From the NCBI RefSeq assembly GCF_002810445.1, contig NZ_NEXS01000001.1, positions 372,001 through 436,000 on the forward strand: a stretch of 64,000 nucleotides of DNA, in the 5' to 3' direction. Shown here piece by piece: positions 51,117-54,846 of the stretch. Source of the DNA: Advenella sp. S44. GTDB taxonomy: Bacteria; Pseudomonadota; Gammaproteobacteria; Burkholderiales; Burkholderiaceae_B. The notes under the pieces are model-generated. The model saw only the letters and a program-made list of their open reading frames with translations, did no database searches and was not told where the DNA came from. A program made the position numbers and the translations under genes. Positions within the stretch are counted from its first letter, which is position 1. Each line of letters begins with the position of its first letter.

Positions 51117-52082
51117 ATGATAAGACAAACGTCGACATATTCAGAAAAATTTAGGAGACTCGAATTGATTCAAAAGCGCCGTGTGGTCGGAAACTCGAAG
51201 GGGTCCATAACGCTAGTAGACTGTACTCTGCGCGATGGAGGATATCTGAATGGCCATTCTTTCACGGACCACCAGATTGAAGTAATACTTCAAATTCTCT
51301 CAAATTCCGGTGTTAACTATATAGAGGTAGGCTATTTTAAACGCCGGAATTATGATCCTCGAACCCCGACTATCGGCCAATGCCCAAAACAATTCCTACA
51401 ATCGCTCCCTACGTTACTATCTGCTGAATACCTAGTTATGATTCCTCCGGACCACGTCCAAGTAGACGATTTGAAGGAGCTAGTAGGCACGAAAATATCT
51501 GGAGTACGGTTTACCTGCAGCGAAGGCAATATTAATACCGTTTCCGCACTGGGAAAAAGATGTAAAGACTTAGGCCTCAAAACCTGCGCCAATATCATAC
51601 GAATTAGTGAGCTTAACAAAACTCAATTAAGACAAATGGTTAGACAATTGCATGCCAGCGGGCTAGACGCAATATATGCAGCAGATTCCAATGGAGCGCT
51701 TTACCCGGAACAAGTGGCTGTAATCGTCAACGAAATACGAAATCATTACGATGGATCCATTGGATTTCATGGCCATGATTCAATACATCTTTCGGTAGCA
51801 AACGCACTGGCTGCGATTAGAGCTGGCGCTACATGGATTGATGGGACAATAGGCGGAGTCGGCAAAGGCGGTGGAAACGCGCCAATAGAAGTATTGTTGG
51901 CTCAAGCTGCTCAATCAGAAAGAAGAGCTATCGATATAGACGGGTTCGCGACGGCTCTGCCTTATTTTGATCAGGACTTTTTCCCGAATCGCTTCACAGA
52001 AAGACTTAACAACGTGTTGTATGGAATAGAAAATCTGAATCTCGATGCGATCAAAGAACGCCAAAATCCTCATCTCAGTTAA
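51117..52082 (+). CDS. DRE-TIM aldolase (4-hydroxy-2-oxovalerate aldolase-like)
   Basis: A 321-residue HMGL-like TIM barrel. The metal/active-site motif DCTLRDGGYLN is at residues 35-45, the metal-binding HGH at 218-220 and GKGGGNAPIE at 249-258, closest in style to DmpG/MhpE aldolases. No acylating aldehyde dehydrogenase partner is encoded. It would join or split a 2-oxo acid and an aldehyde or acyl donor. GGAAG precedes the ATG. First gene of a five-gene operon in an AT-rich island; 12 bases before the next gene. Confidence 0.82.
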   Translation: MIRQTSTYSEKFRRLELIQKRRVVGNSKGSITLVDCTLRDGGYLNGHSFTDHQIEVILQILSNSGVNYIEVGYFKRRNYDPRTPTIGQCPKQFLQSLPTLLSAEYLVMIPPDHVQVDDLKELVGTKISGVRFTCSEGNINTVSALGKRCKDLGLKTCANIIRISELNKTQLRQMVRQLHASGLDAIYAADSNGALYPEQVAVIVNEIRNHYDGSIGFHGHDSIHLSVANALAAIRAGATWIDGTIGGVGKGGGNAPIEVLLAQAAQSERRAIDIDGFATALPYFDQDFFPNRFTERLNNVLYGIENLNLDAIKERQNPHLS

Positions 52083-52094
52083 TGGAGCAATCAA

Positions 52095-52865
52095 ATGAGT
52101 GAATTTTTACAGTCTTTACGAAATAAGATCAATACACGGAGAAAAATGACAAGCCCGCTGTACCAAACGGTCCTTTCGGGCAACGCGAGCAAGCGGCTAC
52201 TCCAACAGTTTGTGATAAACCGCTTCCCAATAAAAAATCATTGGACCCGTAATATCCTAGGCATTGCATCACGAATTCCGGATCACCCCATTCGTACAGA
52301 ACTGGTCGAAAATGTATTTGAAGAAGAAACGGGTTATTTTAGTAAATCCAAACGACACCTGGAAACTTTTGTTGACTTTGGGAAATGTGTTGGGGTATCG
52401 CAGCAGCAAATTAATGCAGCACCCCTGCTGCCCGAGACCAAGGCTGTGATTGAACACAATATTGAGGCCTGCAATACGGAGATTCATTTTACCGCTGGAG
52501 TTGCGTCTGTACTATTACTTATGGAAGGGCAGCCTCCTGTGGTCACAAATGAAAATAAATCCATGCTTTCTGTTATGAAAGACGTATATAAGCTTCCCGA
52601 AGAAGGATATGAATTTTTTGTTCATCATGCCAGTAATGTAGAGCTAAACAATGGTAGTTTCGCTGCGGTCAGTGAATTAGAAGAGGATCACGCTGCCACC
52701 GCAGAGAAAATACTGGAGATATATTGCAACACGGATGAATTAAAAATACAGGCGCTTAAATACTTGGATCGCGCAATTGACCGAAGACATGCACACTTCG
52801 ATGCCATATATAACCTATTCTACGATGCATCAGAGCCTCCGTTTAGATTTGATGAGGAGGAATAG
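52095..52865 (+). CDS. Heme-oxygenase-fold (PqqC/TenA-like) putative diiron oxidase
   Basis: A 256-residue all-helical protein of the iron-containing redox/TenA-like superfamily. Candidate metal ligands recur as in HDO enzymes (UndA, SznF, BesC): EEETGYFSKSKRH (residues 76-88), Glu144 in LLMEGQPP, His177/178 and ELEEDH ending at His199. HDOs oxidise amino-acid or fatty-acid substrates, often cleaving C-C bonds or oxidising nitrogen. GGAG lies before the ATG. The assignment of ligands is by eye and the reaction is unknown. Confidence 0.72.
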   Translation: MSEFLQSLRNKINTRRKMTSPLYQTVLSGNASKRLLQQFVINRFPIKNHWTRNILGIASRIPDHPIRTELVENVFEEETGYFSKSKRHLETFVDFGKCVGVSQQQINAAPLLPETKAVIEHNIEACNTEIHFTAGVASVLLLMEGQPPVVTNENKSMLSVMKDVYKLPEEGYEFFVHHASNVELNNGSFAAVSELEEDHAATAEKILEIYCNTDELKIQALKYLDRAIDRRHAHFDAIYNLFYDASEPPFRFDEEE

Positions 52866-52870
52866 CCATT

Positions 52871-53737
52871 ATGGGCAAAGTCGCCTATCATGCAGGATCT
52901 TATATAGATGAGAGAGACGCTGTAATTCCCGTATCCGCTTTAGCTATGCGCTATGGTCTCTCTATATTCGAAGGTATTCGCGCATATAAATCTCGCTCTA
53001 ATTCAATCGTCTTGTTTAGACTAAACCAACATATCGAAAGACTCAGAAACTCACTTGAAGTAGTGGGATTCCCAGATCCCGGAATCGACGAGCTGCCGGT
53101 GATTATCGAGCGTCTCATTGTGGAAAATTCAATCTCGGACGATTGCTATATACGCCCGAGCATTCACGCGATAAACGACGGCGACATGGGCAGTACGATT
53201 TCGCCTGCAATGACAGTGACAATAAAGCAAATGGGCCGAAAAACTTGGCTTAAAGATAATAGGCTGGCCAAGGTTGCCACTTCAAGCTGGAGAAAGGCCT
53301 CTGCTGATATTTACCCTCCCGCTTTGAAGTGTATATCCGCATATACCATTCCATTCGTCGCAGGCAAAATTGCTTGTTCGAAAGGGTATGATTTCCCGAT
53401 ATTCCTCAGTAAAGAAGGATATGTCAGTGAAGCTCCTACCTCAGCTATTTTTATAGTATCTAAAGGGGAGTTAAAGACGCCTTCTCTAGAAAACTGCCTA
53501 CTTCCGAGCATTACTCGGCAAGCGGTAATAGACATGGCTGATGAATTGAATATACCCGTTAATGAAGAATCTTTGACCGTACAGGATTTATATCTAGCAG
53601 ACGAAGCTTTCTTATGCGGAACCGGTCTTGAGTTTGCCCCTATTGAATCAATCGACTCATACAGACTGCGACAATGTGTGGCTAGACCAATAACGCGTCG
53701 AGTGATTGACTACTATTTCGAAATAGTAAGGAGTTGA
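52871..53737 (+). CDS. Class IV PLP aminotransferase (BCAT/DAAT-like)
   Basis: A 288-residue fold-type IV aminotransferase. FEGIRAY is at 33-39, the catalytic Lys at 153 in PPALKCISAY, the cofactor-contacting Glu at 187 in GYVSEAP, LLPSITRQAV at about 210-219 and AFLCGTGLEFAPI near the C-terminus. It would place or remove an amino group on a 2-oxo acid, fitting the product of the aldolase two genes upstream. Five bases separate it from the HDO gene; GGAGG is the ribosome site. Confidence 0.85.
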   Translation: MGKVAYHAGSYIDERDAVIPVSALAMRYGLSIFEGIRAYKSRSNSIVLFRLNQHIERLRNSLEVVGFPDPGIDELPVIIERLIVENSISDDCYIRPSIHAINDGDMGSTISPAMTVTIKQMGRKTWLKDNRLAKVATSSWRKASADIYPPALKCISAYTIPFVAGKIACSKGYDFPIFLSKEGYVSEAPTSAIFIVSKGELKTPSLENCLLPSITRQAVIDMADELNIPVNEESLTVQDLYLADEAFLCGTGLEFAPIESIDSYRLRQCVARPITRRVIDYYFEIVRS

Positions 53738-53744
53738 AATAGTA

Positions 53745-54452
53745 ATGAATAAAAGTCTGTTAGTTGTTGTGGCGCATCCTGGTGATTTCGTGTGGCGAGC
53801 TGCAGGGGCTATCCTAATACATCGAGCTGCTGGTTGGAGCGTAAAAGTAGTCTGCTTGACTTTGGGTATAAAAGGGGAGGCTGGAAAATTATGGAAAGAA
53901 GAAGGTGCAAACTACGTACATGTACAAAAGACTCGCGAAGCCGAAACCCGGGAAGCAGCAAAGTCATTAGGAGCAGAATTAGAAATTTTACATCTTGACG
54001 ATTACCCTTTAGAAGTAGATAAGGATGTAACAATTCAATTGAATAAAATAATTAGAGTGTGCCGACCAGACGTGATTTTAACGCATTCACCAATCGACCC
54101 CGGTAATGTAGATCATGCGAATACTTGTGAAATGGTAATTCAAGCTCGTACTTTTGCCTCCGCTCCAGGGTACGGCGCTGATATGGTTTCTCCTCCTAGC
54201 CTGTTTCACTTCGAGCCACACCAGCCTGAATTATGCGATTTCAAAGCCGACACTTTTTTAGATATAACGAGTGTATGGAGGCAAAAGAAAGAAGCTTTTC
54301 AAAAAATACAGTCGCAACAAGGCGTCTGGGACTATTACGAGAGAGTGGCTCTACAACGCGGAACGCAAGCAAGTCGGCGATCATCGCATACGATTACGCA
54401 TGCAGAAGCTTTTCAGCGTGCCGGCCCAGCTATGGTGAAAATTCTTGAGTAA
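53745..54452 (+). CDS. GalB-like hydratase (PIG-L/LmbE fold)
   Basis: A 235-residue PIG-L-fold protein. The zinc motif reads AHPGDFVWR (residues 10-18) where deacetylases have AHPDDE: zinc-ligand His and second Asp are kept, the catalytic-base Asp is Gly. The distal His is in GNVDHANT. FHFEPHQPELCDF, TFLDITSVW and RVALQRGTQASRR match 4-oxalomesaconate hydratase GalB of gallate degradation. Hydration of an unsaturated oxo acid is thus more likely than deacetylation. Seven bases after the aminotransferase. Confidence 0.8.
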   Translation: MNKSLLVVVAHPGDFVWRAAGAILIHRAAGWSVKVVCLTLGIKGEAGKLWKEEGANYVHVQKTREAETREAAKSLGAELEILHLDDYPLEVDKDVTIQLNKIIRVCRPDVILTHSPIDPGNVDHANTCEMVIQARTFASAPGYGADMVSPPSLFHFEPHQPELCDFKADTFLDITSVWRQKKEAFQKIQSQQGVWDYYERVALQRGTQASRRSSHTITHAEAFQRAGPAMVKILE

Positions 54453-54846
54453 CGTTTTTTGTAATTGTAGTTACGTTGGTGGGTTAACTTATGCTTTCTG
54501 CATAGATGGTCAACTCGGAAATCCGTCTTTCGTGCTTCTATCTAAGAATAGTAGAATAGTTGAACGAAAGATGGTTCTCGGCATTGCAAATCGTTATAGC
54601 TGCGAGGTTACATTGGCAGAATGGCAGCCCGCTACTTCCACATTTAAGTTGAGATATTTCACGTCTAGTGGAGAAATTGACTTTTGTGGGCATGGAACGC
54701 TCGCAGCCGCTGCCTGGCTATCCAAGTTTCACTCTATTGGCGCACCGATGGAGTTTAGTGTATTGGGCGGTAGCGTAATAGTAGACAGATTCGGACAAAA
54801 TGAATGGGGCTATAGGCAGGCAACGTTCAGTTTGATAGAGCTATTT
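54445..54846 (+). pseudogene. PhzF-like isomerase, truncated by IS
   Basis: The N-terminal 134 codons of a PhzF/diaminopimelate-epimerase-fold protein (family length about 260-300). GNPSFVLL, EVTLAEW and RYFTSSGEIDFCGHGTLAAAAWL are family signatures. The likely start is a TTG overlapping the end of the GalB-like gene. The frame enters the IS element at about 54847 and the rest of the gene is not found on the other side. It was probably the fifth gene of the operon. Confidence 0.75.

Follow-up and report, generated by a model that had tools for sequence, protein, structure and literature searches.

A foreign operon of Advenella sp. S44 as the probable 5′ part of a seven-gene cluster, split in phzF by an insertion sequence, with an exported ligase-coupled peptide as the proposed product

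Results

A five-gene operon that ends at an insertion sequence

In the present study we have analysed a stretch of 64,000 nucleotides of Advenella sp. S44 (the window, lying on the contig numbered C16 here), with attention to an AT-rich operon at 51117-54846 that stops at an insertion sequence (IS). The operon is formed by five open reading frames (ORFs) on the + strand. These encode a DmpG/HMGL-type class II aldolase of 321 amino acids (aa) (51117-52082; Pfam HMGL-like, 5e-27), a heme-oxygenase-fold protein of the HDO/TenA/PqqC superfamily with 256 aa (52095-52865; PF14518, Haem_oxygenas_2, 1.8e-23; TENA_THI-4, 2.5e-7), a class IV (branched-chain type) aminotransferase of 288 aa (52871-53737; Aminotran_4, 4e-42), a GalB-like hydratase of the PIG-L fold with 235 aa (53745-54452; PIG-L, 8e-27) and the first 134 codons of an interrupted phzF with a TTG start (54445-54846; PhzC-PhzF, 1e-10, N-terminal part only). 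The distances between the genes are 12, 5, 7 and -8 bases. Both the five families and this spacing had been put forward in a first-pass annotation of the window, and they are confirmed by the ORF coordinates and the Pfam matches. An IS3-family element of 1187 bp, with rve and HTH_Tnp_1 domains, occupies 54847-56033 on the - strand. The operon end at 54846 is the exact boundary of this element, so that the gene set as first described stops there because of the insertion and not at its true end.

The composition of the operon is foreign to its surroundings, in agreement with the AT-richness already pointed out in the earlier reading. Its GC content of 43.7% lies below every one of 248 overlapping stretches of 3730 bp elsewhere in the window (mean 51.9%, minimum 45.7%). 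A nucleotide search of ten genomes of the genus located the operon in its own genome only; in four of the other nine the match ends at 50734, inside an ABATE/CGNR gene, and one of the nine has an extra 28-bp match upstream of the operon. This ABATE gene (50184-50765, - strand; Pfam ABATE, 6e-25; zf-CGNR, 6e-16) represents the left outer flank, and its homology to the relatives, from 50186 to 50734, is limited to the ABATE gene. In the window neither Rfam families at gathering score nor tRNAs were found, and promoter- and terminator-like sites are no commoner than in shuffled sequence.

The probable other part of phzF is followed by a ligase and a transporter

A search of the whole genome with PF02567 gave three matches, namely a complete phzF on contig C8, the N-terminal part in the window and a C-terminal part on contig C12. 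In the region of C12 that was taken for analysis (L133, C12:276000-290571) the C-terminal part (L133:9549-10059) adjoins another full copy of the same IS (L133:8362-9548), and it is followed on the same strand by an ATP-grasp ligase gene (L133:10071-11264, or from 10005 with a longer start; PF02222, 4e-11) and a gene for a major facilitator superfamily (MFS) transporter (L133:11352-12527; MFS_1, 2e-35). A second ABATE gene copy (L133:12738-13313) constitutes the right outer flank, in the same orientation as the window copy, and beyond it our own reading of the sequence places an epoxide-hydrolase-like gene. The window part of phzF covers positions 3-101 of the PF02567 model and the C12 part 139-258 (138-257 in the genome-wide search); this phzF is not a complete two-domain PF02567 protein and consists of two separate parts.

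Analysing both sides of the break, five signs suggest that these parts were once one unit. The 19 residues past model position 101 in the window part and the 19 before position 139 in the C12 part, compared with a model gap of 37, make the two parts complementary within one residue, and the reading frame is kept across the break. The tetranucleotide ATTT is common to the left flank of the window IS and the right flank of the C12 IS. All eight coding pieces on both contigs have a GC content of 39.7-44.9%, as against 59.0-62.5% for the two genes next to the C12 part, ABATE and epoxide-hydrolase-like. Finally, the two ABATE copies, which are equally oriented and share 91.5% identity over 567 bp, stand at the outer ends of both halves; the C12 copy together with its neighbour gene matches four relatives over 1.84-1.86 kb. 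The five signs are not fully independent of each other, and we regard the former unity of the two halves as strongly supported by them and not as proven.

The genome contains six full copies of the IS as well as partial copies, and eight contig ends lie in it. Two of the six full copies have their own 4-bp direct repeats (ATAC and GTGG) and four are without them; the element therefore generates 4-bp duplications, and recombination or misjoining has affected several of its copies. Another cross pair, AAAG, links the left flank of the C12 copy with C16:362710, but it is only suggestive, since the four copies without matching flanks allow 12 such pairs. The IS interrupts phzF in either case, be the split real or an assembly fault. 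Direct copies of the element at C16:361523-362709 and at 54847-56033 of the window enclose 64 kb of C16, the operon included. The flank repeats hint at an earlier position of this segment with one side of the C12 copy at each of its ends, or at a misassembly at that point.

Ligase and exporter

The closest solved relative of the ligase is the L-amino-acid ligase 4wd3 (9e-17), which is RizA of Bacillus subtilis (PMC6920838), followed by 4dim (4e-9), labelled phosphoribosylglycinamide synthetase, and by BacD (4e-8). Among the NCBIfam models two broad subfamily models come first and then, among others, DdaF of dapdiamide (6e-13) and BacD (5e-10), all of them below cut-off. Provided that the C12 part is a portion of the unit, the latter includes an ATP-grasp amino-acid ligase and a dedicated MFS protein, a predicted exporter. 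The first-pass annotation had stated that the set contains no ligase or transporter; this is most likely wrong, since both follow the other phzF part.

A relative of the ligase is present in 81 plasmid records, and the neighbourhoods of six were inspected. In five of the six stretches an MFS gene, an aminotransferase gene or both are found near the ligase relative. On a Pantoea agglomerans plasmid (ligase identity 39%) it is accompanied by a transaminase, a TauD-type dioxygenase, a gene annotated purD and an MFS gene; on a Vibrio coralliilyticus plasmid by an aminotransferase, a second ATP-grasp gene and an MFS gene; on a Virgibacillus plasmid by a nonribosomal peptide synthetase (NRPS), a PIG-L protein and an MFS gene; on a Klebsiella grimontii plasmid by AMP-binding proteins and an MFS gene; and on a Streptomyces xanthii plasmid by a transaminase, MFS genes, an aspartate kinase and a semialdehyde dehydrogenase. 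The Sulfobacillus plasmid has a second ATP-grasp gene and neither MFS nor aminotransferase. Matches to the window aldolase, HDO-fold protein, aminotransferase, GalB-like protein or PhzF at E≤1e-5 occur in none of the six stretches.

Aldolase and aminotransferase

The aldolase matches the NCBIfam model of 4-hydroxy-2-oxovalerate aldolase at 4e-34 with 118.5 bits, the equivalog cut-off being 286, and it is thus not assigned as a DmpG equivalog; its matches in the PDB are 3dxi (5e-29) and 1nvm (4e-19). Acetaldehyde dehydrogenase, the partner of DmpG, is absent from the seven genes. The aminotransferase matches the NCBIfam branched-chain aminotransferase model at 4e-67, below the equivalog cut-off.

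The HDO-fold protein and its metal site

The assignment of the second protein to the heme-oxygenase-like diiron oxidase (HDO) fold is based on its PF14518 match, and its scores against the CADD and PqqC models of NCBIfam are far below cut-off. HDO proteins carry a 3His/3carboxylate diiron site, and FlcD has a single iron after losing the last two ligands (PMC13108848, PMC11363339); its motif is E-H-X-H-V-R, with the last two ligands replaced (PMC11363339). Four of the six ligand positions align in the present protein (E76-78, H88, E144 and H177/178). The last two fall on N181/L184 in the phmmer alignment, in the alignment with two relatives and in the profile 'pab', on V182/N185 in the profile 'grp2', and on E196/H199 in the larger alignment and the profile of all 12 relatives. 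These assignments vary because the placement of a 14-15-residue insertion in or near the third core helix varies. One alignment register gives H178-V182-N185, in which the V of the FlcD motif is matched and the R is not. An FlcD-like mononuclear site was set aside as the favoured reading, since the alignment hinges on where the insertion is placed, and is kept as a possibility; the last two ligands of a diiron oxidase site may have been replaced.

The GalB-like protein

The closest solved relative of the fourth protein is GalB, a 4-oxalomesaconate hydratase (5cgz, 2.7e-60). Scanning contigs with GalB as a guide gave at least 565 relatives in at least 594 stretches, and the best 80 loci, with stretches of 3.7-16.7 kb, were used for comparison. 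The GalB-like protein is 41.9-48.3% identical to these best 80 relatives, which average 69.3% among themselves, and it forms the longest terminal branch of the 81 proteins (1.04, the next being 0.37). Of 74 alignment columns in which at least 97% of the best 80 agree, it keeps 60 and changes 14. Residues H11, D14 and H124, which we take to have metal roles, are kept and are invariant across six aligned proteins. N-deacetylases of the PIG-L family have an AHPDD motif with a catalytic Asp; the GalB-like protein reads AHPGD, without the second Asp of the deacetylase motif, and five plasmid GalB proteins read AH[SA]AD.

The neighbourhoods of the relatives differ from the present cluster. A CHA aldolase lies in the stretch of 71 of the best 80 relatives and an oxalomesaconate tautomerase in that of 27, two families with no member in the cluster. 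A DmpG-type aldolase occurs in three of the 80, from Alicyclobacillus, and relatives of the HDO-fold protein, aminotransferase, PhzF, ligase or MFS protein of the cluster in none. The protein looks like a GalB relative with a different task, and the aldolase and isomerase of its unit belong to other families.

Search for a second copy

The first-pass annotation had proposed looking for co-occurrence of the five families in other genomes. The genomes were sampled from the own phylum in overlapping draws at the level of family, class and phylum, which do not cover bacteria as a whole; for aldolase and ligase, scoring was limited to the 4-8 best candidates of each genome. The HDO-fold protein was found in one of 369 class genomes at E≤1e-12, its own, and in two of 398 phylum genomes at E≤1e-10, its own and one with a 25% match. 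At 1e-3 it has matches in 45 of 200 family genomes, its own included, with a best non-self match of 27% (8e-18). The surroundings of one of these matches (L010) contain no operon, and tblastn of the other fetched loci (about 3.5 kb) revealed none. For the aldolase, seven of 369 class genomes including its own gave matches at 1e-30, the best non-self one (4e-41) having no other operon gene nearby, and the family sample gave three of 268 at the same threshold, again including its own. The ligase was found in two of 378 phylum genomes at 1e-40, its own and one with a 28% match.

Outside these samples, nucleotide searches of plasmids and of E. coli genomes gave no match to the cluster. In the protein searches of plasmids the first listed matches were 31% for the aldolase, 46% for the GalB-like protein, 36% for the aminotransferase, 39% for the ligase, 39% for the PhzF N-terminal part and 27% for the MFS protein, with none for the HDO-fold protein. 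Phage records, searched with the ligase as sole query, gave two partial matches (27-32%), and pattern scans of viral contigs with the HDO-fold protein and the aldolase gave none. The gene set is absent from the best 80 loci of the GalB-guided scan, and it is described in none of the open-licence PMC papers among the matches listed, a scope that leaves subscription journals outside. The search for co-occurrence thus yielded no further copy in these samples, a result that neither refutes nor confirms the earlier interpretation.

Neighbouring loci on the same contigs

Several loci close to the IS copies are recorded here in their own right. On the - strand beside the C12 copy, an AT-rich locus resembling those for ribosomally synthesised and post-translationally modified peptides (L133:4846-8361) comprises a 30-aa peptide ORF ending in STSTTP (8179-8271), an aKG-HExxH peptide beta-hydroxylase domain (TIGR04267, 4.7e-16), a YcaO protein (7e-11) and a 404-aa protein without Pfam or NCBIfam match. 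Further away, L133:61-4293 encodes a large helicase-nuclease protein that matches the candidate defence family PDC-S37 (1086 bits) and has an MTES_1575 nuclease domain. To the right of the window IS, 56115-56898 holds the C-terminal part of a retron reverse transcriptase (PADLOC RT_V, 1.5e-34, model positions 202-375 of 385), the N-terminal part being absent from the ORF, followed by a cold-shock-domain protein (CSD_V, 5e-26). The segment at 57000-57276 resembles a small dispersed repeat, with several matches (78-97% identity) in two relatives, all within 26 kb of the start of contig C1. Just left of the IS copy at C16:361523, an ORF on C16 (L186:4393-6375) reads as a 660-aa protein resembling a Tn7-type transposase B subunit.

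Discussion

The explanation to which we lean, with a confidence somewhat above even, is that the operon represents the 5′ portion of a cluster of seven genes which was acquired horizontally, was split in phzF by the IS3-family element and would make an exported, ligase-coupled peptide. The ancestral order would have been aldolase, HDO-fold protein, aminotransferase, GalB-like hydratase, PhzF-like isomerase, ATP-grasp L-amino-acid ligase and MFS exporter. The first-pass annotation had considered an amino-acid-derived route to be a coherent reading of the five genes, and we judge this to be right as an interpretation of the gene families. The chemical steps proposed below, their order and the biological role are all deduced from the sequences. 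The aldolase would join pyruvate and an aldehyde to give a 4-hydroxy-2-oxo acid, which the GalB-like enzyme, acting as a dehydratase, would convert into a 2-oxo-3-enoic acid; the PhzF-like enzyme may then shift the double bond and the aminotransferase would deliver an unsaturated non-protein amino acid. The HDO-fold enzyme might oxidise this amino acid or its peptide, while the ligase would couple the unsaturated amino acid to a common one. The exporter would secrete the resulting peptide, whose cleavage inside a competitor would free an antimetabolite. Production by the full route in this strain is doubtful, because phzF is interrupted.

A more specific version of this proposal, tentative and on balance rather unlikely in its details, would be an antimetabolite pathway running gallate-type lower-pathway chemistry backwards. 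In this mechanism the aldolase, a repurposed GalB and a PhzF-type isomerase would lead to a vinylglycine-like amino acid, an HDO-fold enzyme with a remodelled, possibly mononuclear site would turn it into a warhead, and a ligase-made dipeptide would deliver it.

Several points weigh against the seven-gene proposal. The genes are not contiguous, the halves lying on two contigs of the assembly and being linked by inference, and the split may be an assembly fault, because so many contig ends lie in the IS. The shared ATTT is not unique, since the right flank of the window copy itself reads CATTT, with ATTT one base off, which weakens this sign. The lack of a second cluster copy in the samples searched means that no conserved neighbourhood backs the gene set. 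The metal site of the HDO-fold protein is uncertain, two of its six ligands not being placeable, and the AlphaFold model obtained from the single sequence is unusable (mean predicted local distance difference test score, pLDDT, 37.6). The aldolase, HDO-fold, aminotransferase, GalB-like and ligase proteins all score below every NCBIfam cut-off listed, so their substrates are not readable from the families.

Three rival explanations have to be weighed against the proposed peptide cluster. The genes could form a catabolic module akin to gallate or protocatechuate meta-cleavage, in which hydratase, isomerase and aldolase degrade an unsaturated dicarboxylate and the other genes are auxiliary. The 42-48% identity of the GalB-like protein to GalB relatives speaks for it, as does the correspondence of aldolase, hydratase and isomerase to the reaction types of GalB, CHA aldolase and tautomerase, a set present in all three annotated plasmid neighbourhoods viewed (two further records being without annotation); CoA-type catabolic genes also lie upstream in the window. 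However, a DmpG-type aldolase and PhzF stand here in place of the CHA aldolase that accompanies most of the best 80 relatives, the seven genes include no ring-cleavage dioxygenase, the divergence of the GalB-like protein far exceeds that of the other 80, and a peptide ligase and an exporter probably belong to the same unit, all of which makes a catabolic role improbable.

Even less credit is given to a separate origin of the phzF parts and of the ligase-MFS pair, with a five-gene operon complete but for phzF and making a free amino-acid-derived metabolite, in line with the first-pass annotation. The halves are indeed on different contigs, IS-driven rearrangement or chance could place an unrelated phzF piece at the same IS, and the near-match of ATTT on the window copy's own right side fits this view. 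This explanation is very improbable given the agreement of frame, one-residue complementarity, flank, GC content, strand and ABATE copies on both outer sides, and the sole other phzF match in the genome is complete. Finally, the island may be decayed and functionless, the cluster making nothing here and the gene functions having drifted. The interruption of phzF, the mismatched flanks of four of the six full IS copies and the absence of a nucleotide match to the operon in the nine other genus genomes would be expected from decay; yet the remaining six ORFs run uninterrupted through their family domains, with tight gene spacing on both sides, and decay speaks to the present state and not to the ancestral function. 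We consider it unlikely, and return to the seven-gene peptide cluster for the comparison with known systems.

By analogy, this cluster would work like the ligase-centred, NRPS-free clusters of the bacilysin, rhizocticin and ketomemicin types and those combining HDO with ATP-grasp ligases, yet we file it as a member of none, because the seven genes include no phosphonate, prephenate or amidinotransferase gene; the genes that would build the amino acid differ. The gallate gal operon likewise has a GalB-like hydratase with an aldolase and an isomerase, whereas in the cluster the latter two come from other families and amino-group, HDO-fold, ligase and exporter genes are added. With bacilysin the present cluster shares an aminotransferase, an ATP-grasp ligase related to BacD and an MFS exporter; unlike the bac cluster, it is without the prephenate-derived anticapsin genes and has the aldolase/hydratase/isomerase route and the HDO-fold enzyme instead. 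The clusters for rhizocticin and plumbemycin, which are phosphono-oligopeptides of 2-amino-5-phosphono-3-pentenoic acid (APPA), also use an ATP-grasp ligase, and RizA, the nearest solved relative of the present one, presumably belongs to the rhizocticin cluster, which has a 4-hydroxy-2-oxovalerate-type aldolase, RhiG. In contrast, no phosphoenolpyruvate mutase is found among the seven genes (the rest of the genome was not searched for one), and, provisionally, the HDO-fold protein, the GalB-like hydratase and PhzF are peculiar to the present cluster.

In the part of its report available to us, the ketomemicin (ktm) cluster similarly has an aldolase, a dehydratase, a pyridoxal phosphate enzyme and an ATP-grasp ligase and gives a pseudopeptide without NRPS, but it includes an amidinotransferase, a dehydrogenase and a C-acyltransferase, and that part names no HDO, PhzF or GalB-like gene (PMC11943689). 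In the mangotoxin cluster mboABCDEF, as far as the accessible text goes, an HDO acts on a ligase-made peptide as might happen here, although that peptide is a tripeptide of ordinary amino acids and the HDO has a flavin/Fe2S2 partner; the words aldolase, hydratase and aminotransferase are absent from the same text (PMC13185094). A mangotoxin-type identity was set aside. The authors of that text put the number of unique clusters that combine an HDO with an ATP-grasp ligase at 25 or more (PMC13185094), and the present cluster may be one of them. In the rhizocticin and plumbemycin pathways ATP-grasp ligases attach ordinary amino acids to an unsaturated, non-proteinogenic one that is freed inside the target cell (PMC13302981, PMC11867202); we assume a Trojan-horse action for the cluster product because ligase-made phosphonopeptides act in this way.

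With this finding, five genes without an explanation would become part of a pathway that has a defined end, a peptide ligase and an exporter, and its combination of enzymes for building the amino acid has not been reported together among the literature matches listed. The HDO-fold protein, whose insertion falls near the third core helix, is relevant to the question of how many proteins of the superfamily lack a diiron site. Furthermore, a cluster of this kind can go unnoticed because of insertion elements or of assembly breaks that occur at them; a survey of HDO and ATP-grasp neighbourhoods would probably miss this genome, because HDO and ligase are on different contigs.

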